Positions 29,238 to 35,076 of a stretch of 40,855 nt of DNA are shown here, one piece after another. The stretch is from assembly GCA_945878925.1 (NCBI GenBank), contig CAMDXE010000006.1, positions 1-40,855 of the forward strand, in the 5' to 3' direction. This stretch comes from Chitinophaga pinensis (GTDB lineage Bacteria > Bacteroidota > Bacteroidia > NS11-12g > UBA9320). The notes under the pieces were generated by a model. That model was not told the origin of the DNA. It worked only from the letters and a program-made list of their open reading frames with translations, and ran no database searches. The number at the start of each line of letters is the position of its first letter. Position 1 is the stretch's first letter. Position numbers and translations under genes: made by a program.

Positions 29238-30707
29238 ATGAATCCAGAAATAATTCTACTTATTATAGGTCTTTATTTTTTAATGTTGGTAGCTATATCT
29301 TGGATGACCTCGAAAAATGCTGATTCAAAAGATTATTTTATAGGCAACAAAAAATCAATATGGTGGTTGGTTGCCTTAGGCATGATTAGCGATAGCCTCA
29401 GCGGAGTAACCTTTATTTCGGTTCCAGGAAATGTATTTGGCGAAAAATTTAGCTATATGCAAGTGGTGTTTGGGTACGTTATAGGCAATTTTATTACCGC
29501 CTATATTCTTTTGCCCCTGTATTACAGGCTTAATCTCACCTCCATTTATAGCTATCTTGGACAAAGGTTTGGGACTATAACCCAAAAAACCGGTTCTTTT
29601 TATTTTTTACTCAGTCGCACCTTGGGTGCAGCTGCACGTTTATATTTGGCTGCAGGCGTTTTGCAAACTTATTTATTTCAACCCTTCGGCATACCGTTTC
29701 CTATATCTGTCCTAATTATTATTAGCCTTATTCTAATTTATACATATAGAGGCGGAATCAAGTCTCTGGTTTGGACCGATGCCTTGCAATCGGTGTTTTT
29801 GTTAACAGCCTTAGGCTTAACCCTTTTTAACTTATACGCCTATATAAACTGGAATACTGCATGGACTATTATCGAAGAAAATAACTTCAACCAGGTATTC
29901 GTTTGGGATTGGTTGCCTAAAAACAATTTTTTTAAGATGATTCTGGGAGGCATTTTTATTGCGGTAACCATGACAGGAATGGACCAAAATATGATGCAAA
30001 AAAATCTGAGTTGCAAAAACATAAAGGAAGCACGAAAAAACATATTGTCGTACAATAGCACGCTTATTGTTATTAATTTCTTTTTTTTAAGTTTAGGCGT
30101 TCTGCTCTATGTTTTGGCGAGCCAACAAGGAATTGATTTGCCGCTGAAACCCGATGGCAAAGTGGCCACAGATGGCATGTTTCCAATGATGGCCTTTAAT
30201 CATTTAGGCGCCATCGCGGGATTAATTTTTATTGTAGGACTCACTGCAGCTACGTTTTCGAGTGCCGATTCGGTTCTTACCACCTTAACCACCAGTTTTT
30301 GCATCGATTTTTTAAAGGTAAATCCTGAAGAAGTTGAATCAAAATCGAATAAAAACCGAAGGCATGGCATTCATATCTTATTTGCCATCGCTATTTTAAT
30401 AAGCATCTTATTGATTCAAAAACTGAATAACGGTGCCATTATCACTACCATTCTTACTGTGGCAGGATATACATATGGCCCATTGTTGGGTATGTTTGCT
30501 TTTGGTATTTTTACTAAAATTAATATCCGAGAAAAGGGAGTAATTGCCGTTTGTTTGATAGCACCAATCCTAACCTATTTCATAGATCTGTATCTGCCAA
30601 TTCATACCGGTGGATTTCAGCTAGGGTTCTTAAACTTACCTGTAAATGGCGCGCTTACTTTTGTGGGATTGTGGTTTATAAAAAAATCAACGCACATAGT
30701 ACTTTAA
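29238..30707 (+). CDS. Sodium:solute symporter
   Basis: 489 residues from the ATG at 29238; ATG codons at 29226 and 29175 are in frame, but the first hydrophobic helix begins right after 29238. SSS-family secondary transporter with about 13 hydrophobic segments. The family motifs are DYFIGNKKSIWWLVALGMISDSLSGVTF near the start, GGIKSLVWTDALQ, and GLTAATFSSADSVLTTLTTSF, whose serines lie in the sodium-binding part. The substrate (sugar, sialic acid or amino acid) cannot be told. A simple CAAATC-rich stretch precedes the gene, and a terminator-like hairpin follows it. Confidence 0.92.
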   Translation: MNPEIILLIIGLYFLMLVAISWMTSKNADSKDYFIGNKKSIWWLVALGMISDSLSGVTFISVPGNVFGEKFSYMQVVFGYVIGNFITAYILLPLYYRLNLTSIYSYLGQRFGTITQKTGSFYFLLSRTLGAAARLYLAAGVLQTYLFQPFGIPFPISVLIIISLILIYTYRGGIKSLVWTDALQSVFLLTALGLTLFNLYAYINWNTAWTIIEENNFNQVFVWDWLPKNNFFKMILGGIFIAVTMTGMDQNMMQKNLSCKNIKEARKNILSYNSTLIVINFFFLSLGVLLYVLASQQGIDLPLKPDGKVATDGMFPMMAFNHLGAIAGLIFIVGLTAATFSSADSVLTTLTTSFCIDFLKVNPEEVESKSNKNRRHGIHILFAIAILISILLIQKLNNGAIITTILTVAGYTYGPLLGMFAFGIFTKINIREKGVIAVCLIAPILTYFIDLYLPIHTGGFQLGFLNLPVNGALTFVGLWFIKKSTHIVL

Positions 30708-30762
30708 CCACTTTTCTAAAAAACCCTTCTCATATTTATAAAAACAATAGTGTATAGGATTG

Positions 30763-30802
30763 AATTAGTCAATTCTTAATTTCGCTAATTGGCTAATTTT
30801 TT
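30763..30802 (+). terminator. Intrinsic terminator after symporter gene
   Basis: AATTAGTCAATT (30763-30774) pairs with AATTGGCTAATT (30787-30798), one pair being G-U, with a 12-base loop and T-run through 30802. It lies 55 bases after the symporter stop. The stem is AT-rich but long. Confidence 0.5.
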
Positions 30803-30872
30803 CACCAACTTTCCACTATTTATTATAGTTAAGCTCGATTATTGAAGATACTAAATGATTCTTAAAAATCAA

Positions 30873-30917
30873 ATTATCGGATATTATGCAAAAATATTTT
30901 GCATAATATCCGATAAT
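30873..30917. repeat. Long perfect palindrome upstream of ATPase
   Basis: Arms of 21 bases (30873-30893 and 30897-30917) are perfectly complementary around a three-base centre. The arm core reads TTATCGGATATTATGCAAAA. It ends 60 bases before the ATPase ATG and 27 bases before its candidate -7 element. It could be a regulator binding site, a cruciform-forming site or a trace of a mobile unit. The symmetry is seen directly; the role is open. Confidence 0.8.
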
Positions 30918-30943
30918 AGCTAATAATTTTTGCGAATTATACA

Positions 30944-30951
30944 TATATTTG
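30944..30951 (+). promoter_or_regulatory. Candidate -7 element for ATPase gene
   Basis: TATATTTG matches TAnnTTTG exactly, 26 bases before the ATPase ATG, giving a short leader of about 20 bases. No TTG stands at the usual -33 distance, so an activator acting at the upstream palindrome is one possibility. Confidence 0.4.
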
Positions 30952-30976
30952 CTATTACAATAGATAATTAGCAGCG

Positions 30977-32158
30977 ATGTTTACACGAAAAATTTATCCA
31001 ATTCTAGAAAATCACTTGAGCCAAAAACAGGTAACTGTAATTACTGGTTTGCGTCGTGTTGGGAAATCTACGGCCTTAAAACACCTACTGAATGTATCTA
31101 GTATTGAAAACAAAATTTATCTTGATTTGGAAAGATTGGAAAATCAAAATATTTTTTTACAAAATTCATATAAGGATATAGAAAGGGCCATAGAAATACT
31201 TGGTTTTGATTTTTCACAGCCGGGTATTATTGCTATGGATGAAATACAAATGGCCAAAAACAGCAGCAGTGTTATTAAAGCCTTGTATGACGAGTATGGA
31301 ACAAAATTTATAGTTACGGGTTCCAGTTCATTTTATATTAAAAATCATTTTTCAGAAAGTTTGGCTGGACGAAAACGAATATTTGAACTCAACCCATTAG
31401 ACTTTGAGGAGTTTTTGCAATTTAAAGAAATAGATACTAAGCCTTTGCAAAAAGAAAAAATGAAACCCTTTTTACCCATGTATTACGATTTATACAAAAA
31501 ATGGTATGAGGAATATTTAGCGTATGGAGGATTTCCAGAAGTGGTACTTGCTCCAAAGGCAGAATATAAGGTTGATTATTTAAAGGATGTTTTAAACTCA
31601 CACATTGAGTTGGATGTAAAATTATTGGGCGATGTAAGTTCGTCGGATATACTTTACAAATTAATACTTTTGCTTGCCAATAGAGTAGGCAGCAAAATGG
31701 ATTTTACAAAAATTGCCAGCCTCTTGGGTATAAATAGAATGAAGGTTAAGGACTACATTTTACTTCTTGAATACACGTATTTAATAAAAACAATTAAGCC
31801 TTTTACGAAAGGAAAAGACAAAGAAATAACCAAACAACCTAAAATTTATTTTTCCGACAACGGATTATTGCAAATATGCGGTCAAACATCAAGCGGCGCT
31901 ATTTTTGAAAACGCAATAGCAAACCAGCTAAGTAATTTAGGTGAAGTGAATTTTTATGAGAAGAGCTCGGGTACAGAAATTGATTTTATATTAAATAAAA
32001 AAACTGCTATAGAGGTAAAAGAAACTCCCAGTGATTTTGATCTGAAAACATTGGAACGAAGAGCCAAGCCTCTAGAATTGGAAACCAATTTATTGATTGG
32101 AAAGAATATAGCTCCAAGTGGGTACTCTAATTTTATTTGGGGAGGAAATATTTTTTAG
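30977..32158 (+). CDS. AAA ATPase with DUF4143 domain
   Basis: 393 residues. P-loop ATPase of the AAA_14/DUF4143 group, function not established; members are frequent, variable accessory genes. The Walker A GLRRVGKST is at residues 24-32, the Walker B IIAMDEIQ at 84-91, and a sensor-like FIVTGSSS at 111-118. The middle has GRKRIFELNPLDFEEFL and EEYLAYGGFPEVVL, both typical of the group. The C-terminal DUF4143 part (about 205-370) contains SSGTEIDFILNKKTAIEVK, a PD-(D/E)xK-nuclease-like pattern that may be structural rather than active. It is a single gene with its own apparent promoter, preceded by a long perfect palindrome, and AT-rich by eye. Confidence 0.93.
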   Translation: MFTRKIYPILENHLSQKQVTVITGLRRVGKSTALKHLLNVSSIENKIYLDLERLENQNIFLQNSYKDIERAIEILGFDFSQPGIIAMDEIQMAKNSSSVIKALYDEYGTKFIVTGSSSFYIKNHFSESLAGRKRIFELNPLDFEEFLQFKEIDTKPLQKEKMKPFLPMYYDLYKKWYEEYLAYGGFPEVVLAPKAEYKVDYLKDVLNSHIELDVKLLGDVSSSDILYKLILLLANRVGSKMDFTKIASLLGINRMKVKDYILLLEYTYLIKTIKPFTKGKDKEITKQPKIYFSDNGLLQICGQTSSGAIFENAIANQLSNLGEVNFYEKSSGTEIDFILNKKTAIEVKETPSDFDLKTLERRAKPLELETNLLIGKNIAPSGYSNFIWGGNIF

Positions 32159-32172
32159 CCTCTCGCAAATAC

Positions 32173-35076
32173 CTATTCATTTTTTAATGCCTCATAAATA
32201 ACATCCATTATTTCGGTTCTGACGTTTTTGGTAATTAAGGTTCTATTATCGGCACTGGGATGAATACGATTAGAGAGAAATACATAAACCAATCCATTTT
32301 GAGGGTCCATCCAAATACAAGTTCCAGTAAACCCGGTATGGCCATACCCTAAGTTTGAAGCTAATTTTGAAGCTGGGCTCGTTTTTCCTGCGGTATTATC
32401 TGGCTTGTCAAAACCCAAGCCTCTTCTGCTGTGAGCGTTTTGGCGTTTGGTGAATTCTAATATGGTGCTTTGATTAAGGATTCGTTTCCCATTATAAAAT
32501 CCATAATTCATGAGCATTTGCCCAATTTCGGCCAGTTCAAATGCGTTGCCAAATAATCCGGCATGACCGCTAACTCCCCCTAATAAGGCCGCCGAAGGAT
32601 CATGTACAAAACCTTGCAGTACACCTTTTCTAAAATCGGGGTCCTTCTCGCTAGGCACAATTTGGTTTTTCTCTACTTTTTTGCGAGGATTAAACGTGAG
32701 GTTCTTTAAACCCATAGGCTTATAAAAATTTTCATCCATATAAACAGAAAATTCTTTATGGGTAACCCTTTCTATCATAAATCGAAGCATAATCATTCCC
32801 AAATCGCTATATACATAAGTCCCTTTTTGGCCCATAGGCGATTCGGCAATCTCTCGAAGTATCCGTTTTTGATAATCCTTATTTACAAAAAGCCCCTCGC
32901 CTATTTCATTACTAAACACGTCTGTTCGCACATTCGACAATGCACTATCTCGCAATTTTTCATCCGATGCAAAGCTTTTATAAAACGGAATAAAATCTTT
33001 AAGGCCCGCTTCGTGAACCAGTATTTCTCTTAAGGTTATATTTTCTTTAGTGCTTCCTCTGAGTTCGGGCAAATACATGGATAGAGTATCATCCAATTTT
33101 ATTTTATCATTTTCAACCAATTTCATTACGGCCAAAGTGGTGGTTGCCAGTTTGGTGATGGATGCCAAGTCGTAGAGATTAGAATTTTCAACCTTTACTT
33201 TTTTATCATAGGTATGGTATCCAAACGACTCATTATAAATTACTTTTCCATGCTGCGCCACGAGTACTTGACATCCCGGTGTGGCCTTGGCGCTTATGGC
33301 ATTTTTCACTATATCGTTAATCCGATTGAGTTTGGTACTTAATTTAGCATTCACCTTGCCTCCAACATAGGGTTGCAAAACATCACTTTTGGGAAGTGAT
33401 ATTCCGTCGGATACAGAATATTCGTTGCCCACCGAAACGCTCAACTTGGCATTGGTGTTTTTCATACCCCATAAGGTATTTGCCGCTGCTTTATAATAGG
33501 GTTCCTCATCGCCAAATGCGTAAACGGTAGATTTAATACCTGGAAAATTTCGCATCGAATATGGATTGCCAAAACACACCATGCTTATGTTGGTTTTTTC
33601 CTTGAGTTGGCTCACCAAACTGCACAAATCTGAGGTTATGCCATAATTGTCTTTTGGATATTTATTAATCTGATGCAAGGCTACGATAACATGGTCGTAT
33701 TTTTCTAATTTACTAACCATATTTGAGCAATATGCAATCCCGAATAATTTATCGACTGAGAAAATATCGCAGTTGCCGAGCTCCTTCATTTTGCGTTCGA
33801 ATCCCGTGGGGCCATTCCCACCTAAGGCAATTACGGCCATAGTTTTAAAGGGTTTTAAAAAAAGCGGAATGCACGACGAATCATCTTTTGCTACGCAAAT
33901 CTCACTTTCAACAAGTTGGGTATAAAGGCTTAAGGCGTCCGAATTGTTCAAATCCATAAGCAAATTGGTATAGTATTGATTGGCCATCATATCGAGGCCA
34001 ACAAAAGCCTTGGCTTGCAATATTTTTTTTACCTTAGCATTAAGCGCCTCCATGCTATATCTGCCATCTAAAACCGCTGTTTTGATTGTGTCGATTGCTC
34101 TTGGAACATCGGCTGGGCAGAGCAATATATCGTTGCCAGCCATTAATGCTTTTAATTCGAGGATGCCGCTCTGATAATCTTTCGATACGCCTTGCATATC
34201 TAAGGCATCGGTTATGGCAAGGCCTCTAAAATTTAATTCTTTTTTTAATAAACCATTGATAGCTAATGGCGATAGTGAAATAGCCAAATTTGCCGTAGTA
34301 TCAATACCTGGCATAAACACATGAGCTGTCATAATGCTCATTACACCGCTGTCGATTAAATATCTAAATGGTTTTAATTCTATGGAATCTAATCGGCCGC
34401 GATGGTGCTTAATTATCGGTAGGTCTTTATGCGAATCGGTTTTGGTATCGCCATGTCCCGGAAAATGTTTGGCACACGCAATAATGCCTTCATCTTGCAT
34501 GCCTTTAGCATACTTCCATCCTTTACGAGCCACATTCATAGGGTCTTCGCCAAACGATCGAAAATTGATAACCGGGTTGTCGGGGTTATTATTTACATCA
34601 ATTACAGGGGCAAAATTAATATGTATGCCCAATCGCTTACATTGTTTGCCAATATCCCTCCCCATTTTATAAATCAAATTCTCGTCTTGAATGCCCCCTA
34701 ATCCTATTTGATATGGGTATTGAATCGTATTGTCCACTCGCATAGACACTCCCCATTCGCCATCAATGCCTACTAACAGCGGTACGTCGGCCATCGACTG
34801 GTACTTTTGGACCGAAAGAAACAGATTTTGAGGGTCGGTTTTAAAAAAAATGATACCCCCAACCTTGTATTTTGCCACCAGAGAATCTACCTTATCGAGG
34901 TGATTTTTTCCTTTTGATGGCCGAACTTCCACCATCATTAATTGCGCAATTTTCTCTTCGAGGCTTAGTTTTGAAAGGGTTTCCGACACCCACGACTCTT
35001 TCCCTAAACCGCTAAGGGTTCGGGTATCAAAAAATGAAACAACACCGAATAGTGTCAGCAATAATCCCCAGCGCAT
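32173..35076 (-). CDS. GH3 glucosaminidase-beta-lactamase fusion
   Basis: 967 residues with an N-terminal hydrophobic leader, so probably exported. A GH3 N-terminal domain of the NagZ type (about 30-360) has KHFPGHGD (203-210), the Asp-His pair in DSH (214-216) and nucleophile D290 in ITDALDM. A GH3 C-terminal-like part (about 390-575) follows. A serine beta-lactamase/DD-peptidase-like domain (about 585-960) has S639-x-x-K642, Y756-S-D758 and H913-T-G915. One chain could therefore both remove N-acetylglucosamine from and cut or esterolyse peptidoglycan-derived material. The fusion is known in Bacteroidota, but the combined function is not settled. It follows the AAA ATPase gene tail to tail, 14 bases apart. 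Confidence 0.93.
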   Translation of the reverse strand: MRWGLLLTLFGVVSFFDTRTLSGLGKESWVSETLSKLSLEEKIAQLMMVEVRPSKGKNHLDKVDSLVAKYKVGGIIFFKTDPQNLFLSVQKYQSMADVPLLVGIDGEWGVSMRVDNTIQYPYQIGLGGIQDENLIYKMGRDIGKQCKRLGIHINFAPVIDVNNNPDNPVINFRSFGEDPMNVARKGWKYAKGMQDEGIIACAKHFPGHGDTKTDSHKDLPIIKHHRGRLDSIELKPFRYLIDSGVMSIMTAHVFMPGIDTTANLAISLSPLAINGLLKKELNFRGLAITDALDMQGVSKDYQSGILELKALMAGNDILLCPADVPRAIDTIKTAVLDGRYSMEALNAKVKKILQAKAFVGLDMMANQYYTNLLMDLNNSDALSLYTQLVESEICVAKDDSSCIPLFLKPFKTMAVIALGGNGPTGFERKMKELGNCDIFSVDKLFGIAYCSNMVSKLEKYDHVIVALHQINKYPKDNYGITSDLCSLVSQLKEKTNISMVCFGNPYSMRNFPGIKSTVYAFGDEEPYYKAAANTLWGMKNTNAKLSVSVGNEYSVSDGISLPKSDVLQPYVGGKVNAKLSTKLNRINDIVKNAISAKATPGCQVLVAQHGKVIYNESFGYHTYDKKVKVENSNLYDLASITKLATTTLAVMKLVENDKIKLDDTLSMYLPELRGSTKENITLREILVHEAGLKDFIPFYKSFASDEKLRDSALSNVRTDVFSNEIGEGLFVNKDYQKRILREIAESPMGQKGTYVYSDLGMIMLRFMIERVTHKEFSVYMDENFYKPMGLKNLTFNPRKKVEKNQIVPSEKDPDFRKGVLQGFVHDPSAALLGGVSGHAGLFGNAFELAEIGQMLMNYGFYNGKRILNQSTILEFTKRQNAHSRRGLGFDKPDNTAGKTSPASKLASNLGYGHTGFTGTCIWMDPQNGLVYVFLSNRIHPSADNRTLITKNVRTEIMDVIYEALKNE

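Follow-up and report, generated by a model that had tools for sequence, protein, structure and literature searches.

A 45-bp palindrome in the Chitinophaga pinensis window (the whole 40,855-nucleotide stretch of DNA analysed here) stands before an AAA_14-DUF4143 ATPase gene of the PDC-S01 type, and is a two-unit version of a layout found upstream of many genes of this family. We consider it probable, at roughly 0.6, that the palindrome is a private operator array read by the product of the gene behind it, with the ATPase oligomerising, binding the array and repressing its own promoter.

The palindrome and the promoter

The palindrome (30873–30917, no strand assigned) consists of two perfect arms of 21 nt at 30873–30893 and 30897–30917 that are 100% complementary and flank a 3-nt centre, bearing out the near-uninterrupted 45-bp dyad reported in the initial annotation. 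It had also been judged to lie far beyond chance, and so it does: thirty dinucleotide-preserving shuffles of the window gave longest arms of 9–12 nt, and the runner-up perfect arms across the window, with loops of up to 10 nt, are 13 and 11 nt. A single copy is present in the 2.42-Mb assembly, so within its own genome the palindrome is not a dispersed repeat, a possibility for which a genome search had been proposed. The long form is absent from the viral contigs searched, and Rfam gives no match to 30600–31100.

Within the arms lie two units on the plus strand, TATCGGATA at 30875–30883, which is near-palindromic by itself and centred at 30879, and TATCCGATA at 30907–30915, centred at 30911; the pair occurs once genome-wide. 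We take the layout to require at least two units, their centres separated by 22/23 or 32/33 bp, and the window has two (TATCSGATA at both centres) at 32 bp. In the direct-repeat profile of the window upstream d = 32 is tied for best with a score of 7.5 against a threshold of 11, which does not exceed the 1% null; the score is this low since each unit mirrors the other. The significance of the element is carried by the long dyad and not by the direct repeat, and the palindrome works like the periodic upstream arrays described below without strict membership of that class by direct-repeat score.

Extending the phase of the two units leads to a third position at 30943, and this is where the promoter box is found. 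The sequence TATATTTG (30944–30951, plus strand) matches exactly TAnnTTTG, which we take to be the Bacteroidota −7 consensus, and lies 33 nt 5′ of the ATG at 30977. In Bacteroides the −33 and −7 elements are separated by 17–23 nt, and the closest TTTG 5′ of the box ends at 30932, 11 nt away, so it is unfit as a −33 partner; the box had been described as exact and lacking such a partner, and this description stands.

The predicted ATPase-nuclease

The gene (30977–32158; this and the domains below on the plus strand) encodes 393 residues that score 101.4 bits against Pfam AAA_14 (cut-off 27) and 90.2 bits against DUF4143 (cut-off 28.1), and seven PADLOC models of PDC-S01 match it, the best with E 4.7e-63 over residues 1–348. 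The AAA_14 ATPase domain (31025–31417, residues 17–147), assigned from Pfam and invariant residues, includes Walker A GLRRVGKST and Walker B AMDEIQ. A winged helix, the proposed DNA reader, is predicted from secondary structure and fold neighbours at residues about 223–275 (31643–31801), and a PD-(D/E)XK nuclease domain is predicted at residues about 306–374 (31892–32098), with E334, D336, E346 and K348 invariant in 12/12 and 27/27 rows of the alignments.

A structure model built from the 27 rows (mean pLDDT 86, pTM 0.86) suggests the order ATPase, winged helix, PD-(D/E)XK fold, the domain names being read from secondary structure and fold matches. The best fold neighbours over residues 1–303 are the archaeal STAND-type ATPases 2QEN (PABY2304; Z 17.2, rmsd 4.5, 262 aligned) and 2FNA (SSO1545; Z 16.7, rmsd 3.9, 260 aligned), and the neighbours also include plant NLRs, CED-4, Avs5 and the DNA-binding Orc1/Cdc6. 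This likeness to Orc1/Cdc6 and to NLR/STAND ATPases that have a winged helix favours the operator reading; sequence identity of the STAND-type ATPases to the window protein is weak (18–23%). Residues 304 onward are hardly covered in the fold matches, and for the nuclease reading we therefore rely on the four invariant residues and on PMC12988326, the available part of which describes PDC-S01 as an ATPase fused to PD-(D/E)XK. As modelled, the window protein would be an NLR/Orc-like ATPase with a winged helix and an intact PD-(D/E)XK site. The same part of that paper places PDC-S01 fourth in frequency among prokaryotic defences, states that most PDCs await validation, and does not mention upstream arrays (PMC12988326). 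PDC-S01 is a widespread candidate defence family with a putative anti-phage role.

Periodic arrays upstream of family genes

PF13635 genes above the cut-off were gathered from 26/58 genomes of relatives and 149/296 genomes of the phylum, and relatives of the window protein at 1e-20 were present in 60/395 phylum genomes. The resulting sample is non-random, being made up of best-scoring hits plus picks, with strong hits clustered by kin, and its start codons are guessed; genes with an incomplete N-terminus, N's, identical upstreams or short upstreams (<120 nt for the 219-gene score, <150–170 nt for other counts) were left out. On a first look many family genes have long dyads 5′ of the start codon, the sequence being different in each, and a dyad score of at least 14 is reached by 36/128 family genes versus 5/125 same-genome controls with at least 60 bp of intergenic sequence (Fisher p 9e-8).

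Scoring the recurrence of 12-mers with up to one mismatch in 151 Bacteroidota upstreams identified repeats at 32 bp (30 genes), 33 bp (23), 22 bp (8) and 23 bp (9), together with peaks at 64 and 66 bp (11 genes each) that are harmonics. Spacings of 32 or 33 bp combined are present in 52/151 of these upstreams; among 261 controls there is one at 32 and two at 33. A local direct-repeat score with a 1% shuffle threshold, applied within 200 nt upstream, is significant for 94/219 family genes (40 at 32 bp, 31 at 33, 7 at 22, 7 at 23 and 9 elsewhere), such that 85 of the 94 use one of four periods, versus 8/263 same-genome control genes, none of them at 22, 23, 32 or 33 bp. Neighbouring genes used as a further control gave 19/156 with a repeat, and when these were re-run 11 of the 13 hits at the four periods turned out to be the array of the family gene itself, picked up because the neighbour is transcribed divergently from it. 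After clustering the proteins at 50% identity, 34/106 clusters have a 32/33 array and 8 a 22/23 array. In the arrays a palindrome-rich unit occurs two to six times directly upstream of the gene, reaching up to the −7 box. The quantised periods match two and three turns of B-DNA, and this points to protein geometry rather than slippage.

By the direct-repeat score 57% of the 219 family genes have no significant array; many of them, not all, have a single dyad instead. The initial annotation linked the dyad to the DUF4143 ATPase family, with control of the family as one possibility; the link is borne out, and the dyad probably reflects such control. Its suggestion of a cruciform signal is not needed, since the repeats of most arrays are direct and form no single long arm pair. 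Among the ten closest orthologues of the window protein, four have significant repeats (L254, L255, L258, and L256 at 34 bp) and six have none; both array and dyad are missing from the nearest of them, L251, and from a Runella plasmid copy, each at 55% identity. The same palindrome precedes none of the nine closest orthologues read (39–55% identity), so the expectation that it would recur before them failed as worded; what is shared is the layout, in which palindromic units of private sequence form a periodic array.

In a small sample of DUF234 relatives 1/13 has a significant repeat, at d = 22. A subfamily of DUF4143 ATPases (L211, L225, L301, L303 and similar), comprising the best PF13635 hits of the phylum and their kin, carries one short dyad near the start codon and no array. 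We found no mention of such upstream arrays in the literature on DUF4143, PF13635 or PDC-S01, in a search of open-access journal papers.

Outside the Bacteroidota we collected 68 genes from 49 genomes reached via a palindrome-pattern scan; these genomes were picked for the TATCGGATA pattern anywhere, and the pattern is unrelated to the family genes except in one genome (that of L042). An array at one of the four periods is present in 22/68, and carriers include spirochaetes, Fibrobacterota, Clostridia, Leptospirales and archaea (L320, L324), with phyla taken from record titles. Three of eight plasmid copies have an array: that of Haloferax larsenii (L374) is a 66-bp repeat with a score of 23 and 33-bp phasing, and the periods are 32 in Methanomethylovorans (L373) and 23 in Ruminococcus albus. 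Among family copies on viral contigs the count is 3/27.

Several of these loci are of interest in their own right. On the H. larsenii plasmid the PDC-S01-like gene has an ACAAC...GTTGT array phased at 33 bp (L374, 268–390) and adjoins cas3, and on an Arcobacter cloacae plasmid (L375) a PDC-S01-like gene is flanked by cas3 and cas4. An Acinetobacter seifertii plasmid (L372, 266–311) has a 46-bp perfect palindrome with a T-run 46 nt before a PDC-S01-like gene, perhaps a terminator, and another family copy (L371) has a hairpin and no array. The AAA_14-DUF4143 gene TT_P0211 of Thermus thermophilus HB27 is up 6.6-fold with plasmid in Argonaute-positive cells, according to the accessible portion of PMC4406477.

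Private units are co-inherited with the protein

The array period tracks protein phylogeny: a tree of 86 proteins needs 19 changes of period label versus a shuffled mean of 36.9, and 0/200 shuffles were as low. Unit sequences are likewise inherited with the protein, being shared by 17/18 pairs whose proteins are at least 70% identical, 6/11 at 60–70%, 28% at 50–60% and about 1% below 45%. Paralogues do not share them, with 0/66 pairs having a common unit in the 13 genomes where at least two arrays occur; the genome of the window has three different arrays (the window, L138 and L160). The two arrays checked, the window pair and that of L338 in genome G553, are each unique within their own genome. 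Because the unit is inherited with the protein, is private and is single in the genome, we infer that its reader is the product of the same gene, which would also be the most economical arrangement.

On this reading the ATPase would oligomerise and place one winged-helix dimer on each unit, all along the same face of the helix, and fast change of unit and reader together would prevent cross-talk among paralogues in one genome. In a comparison of alignment columns between unit-sharing and non-sharing pairs, delta is 0.14–0.18 at residues 242–286 versus 0.10 overall, with other blocks equally high, which points only weakly to the winged helix as the recognition segment.

Scanning genome contigs for TATCGGATA...TATCCGATA gave at least 118 loci, and among the matches listed an AAA_14-DUF4143 gene adjoins the pattern in 2/118 (L015 and L042), both belonging to the three listed matches with unit centres 33 bp apart. 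Since these two were selected by that very pattern, their sharing of the window unit is not counted as conservation. A family of proteins of about 317 aa lies beside TATCGGATA-N15/16-TATCCGATA palindromes at 28/118 listed loci (L016, L036, L052, L054, L085 and others), the palindrome being mostly before the gene, in Flavobacterium, archaea and other phyla among the matches listed. Fic/DOC domains were identified in the two members that were scanned, one of which also matches HTH_17 weakly. In contrast to the ATPase arrays, the site beside this family is constant in sequence across phyla, but it was the search pattern.

Position relative to the promoter

TAnnTTTG occurs at −75 to −15 in 62/151 Bacteroidota family genes versus 2/151 shuffled sequences. 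Where a gene has both an array and a −7 box, the box is within the array in 12 and no more than 45 nt downstream of it in 21, together 33/34, and in Ruminococcus albus the units of the 23-bp array cover both the −35 and the −10 (boxes that we assigned by reading the sequence). Because the arrays meet the −7 box, and in Ruminococcus overlie −35 and −10, we lean towards repression, in which the bound ATPase would silence its own promoter.

The absent −33 element of the window could instead signal that the array activates, as the initial annotation had also proposed, with a host factor or the triggered ATPase binding upstream of a −33-less promoter and recruiting RNA polymerase; many arrays do stop just 5′ of the −7 box. 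We think this unlikely. A common host factor would not be expected to meet a private unit at each gene, shared by none of the 66 paralogue pairs, nor to have a period that tracks the ATPase tree, and an activation site sits poorly with the −7 box lying inside the array in 12/34 genes and with the R. albus arrangement.

The operator of RptR, a defence-island repressor, resembles the arrays in having three direct repeats, each with a short palindrome, that lie 31–58 bp before the start codon, overlap the −10 and are bound in a modular manner, as described in the available part of PMC12255303. RptR differs in being a small stand-alone regulator whose one site, TAGCTA, is conserved (PMC12255303, same part), whereas here each gene has its own unit at two- or three-turn spacing. 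Neither a TAGCTA series nor an RptR gene was found directly upstream of the ATPase gene: 30708–30976 has a single TAGCTA (30917–30922), and no ORF of at least 80 aa, and hence no separate regulator gene of that size, is listed between the upstream SSF gene and the ATPase.

Phased repeats are also known from plasmid iterons, which are often about 22 bp apart and precede an autoregulated winged-helix Rep initiator, and from the origin boxes of Orc1/Cdc6, itself a fold neighbour of the window protein. Unlike these, the window gene is chromosomal, its product has a predicted C-terminal nuclease, and the unit changes from gene to gene.

The locus and its variability

The junction between the SSF transporter gene, which ends at 30707, and nagZ (30707–32173) varies within the genus. 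About 260 nt separate the two genes in the sister genome G005, whose nagZ is 88% identical; in G004 there is almost nothing between them, and in G003 a different ORF of 343 aa occupies the junction. Since the junction lacks the ATPase in G005 and G004, gene and palindrome are present or absent together.

This joint presence and absence fits a reading in which the array, besides being an operator, takes part in the immune mechanism itself, either a tether or licensing site that holds the nuclease inactive or an occupancy sensor of invasion, and so do the fusion of an NLR-like ATPase to an intact predicted nuclease site and the conservation of private arrays over bacteria and archaea. We regard it as distinctly unlikely, for the tight fit to the −7 box is needed by an operator and not by a tether, and many family members have no array.

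The initial annotation raised the further thought that the palindrome is a footprint of spread, that is, the ends or the insertion target of a moving cassette. The empty junctions in G005 and G004, the patchiness of the family (26/58 relatives above the cut-off) and its occurrence in 566 plasmid records speak for mobility, but none of the 80/80 arrays with at least 150 nt of downstream sequence has a unit copy 3′ of the gene, the window unit does not recur on the 3′ side of its own gene either, and the unit varies from gene to gene, so this reading is largely refuted and very improbable. Least credible is a plain tandem duplication or transcription terminator with no specific reader, suggested by a terminator-like minus-strand call over the window hairpin and by the T-run ending the long dyad of Acinetobacter L372, since slippage would not select 22, 23, 32 and 33 bp, periods that none of the control genes shows, and the window hairpin is A+T-rich (5 G-C among 20 pairs) with no nearby gene needing a terminator or ending beside it (SSF end 30707).

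Implications

A bolder and tentative extension, which we consider unlikely, is that an NLR-like nuclease switch reads a private, helically phased array as a fast-diversifying lock-and-key pair, with at least ten mutually blind copies in a cell, and that loss of occupancy in infection could derepress the gene and arm the nuclease. If true, a single-gene immune candidate that is among the commonest in bacteria and archaea would be a self-reading nuclease switch. A private operator array would offer a direct handle on what PDC-S01 senses and how it is restrained: each private array names the DNA for a binding assay and predicts that paralogues are orthogonal. It may also mark true start sites for annotation, and the rules of recognition could be learned from the hundreds of array-protein pairs that exist in nature.
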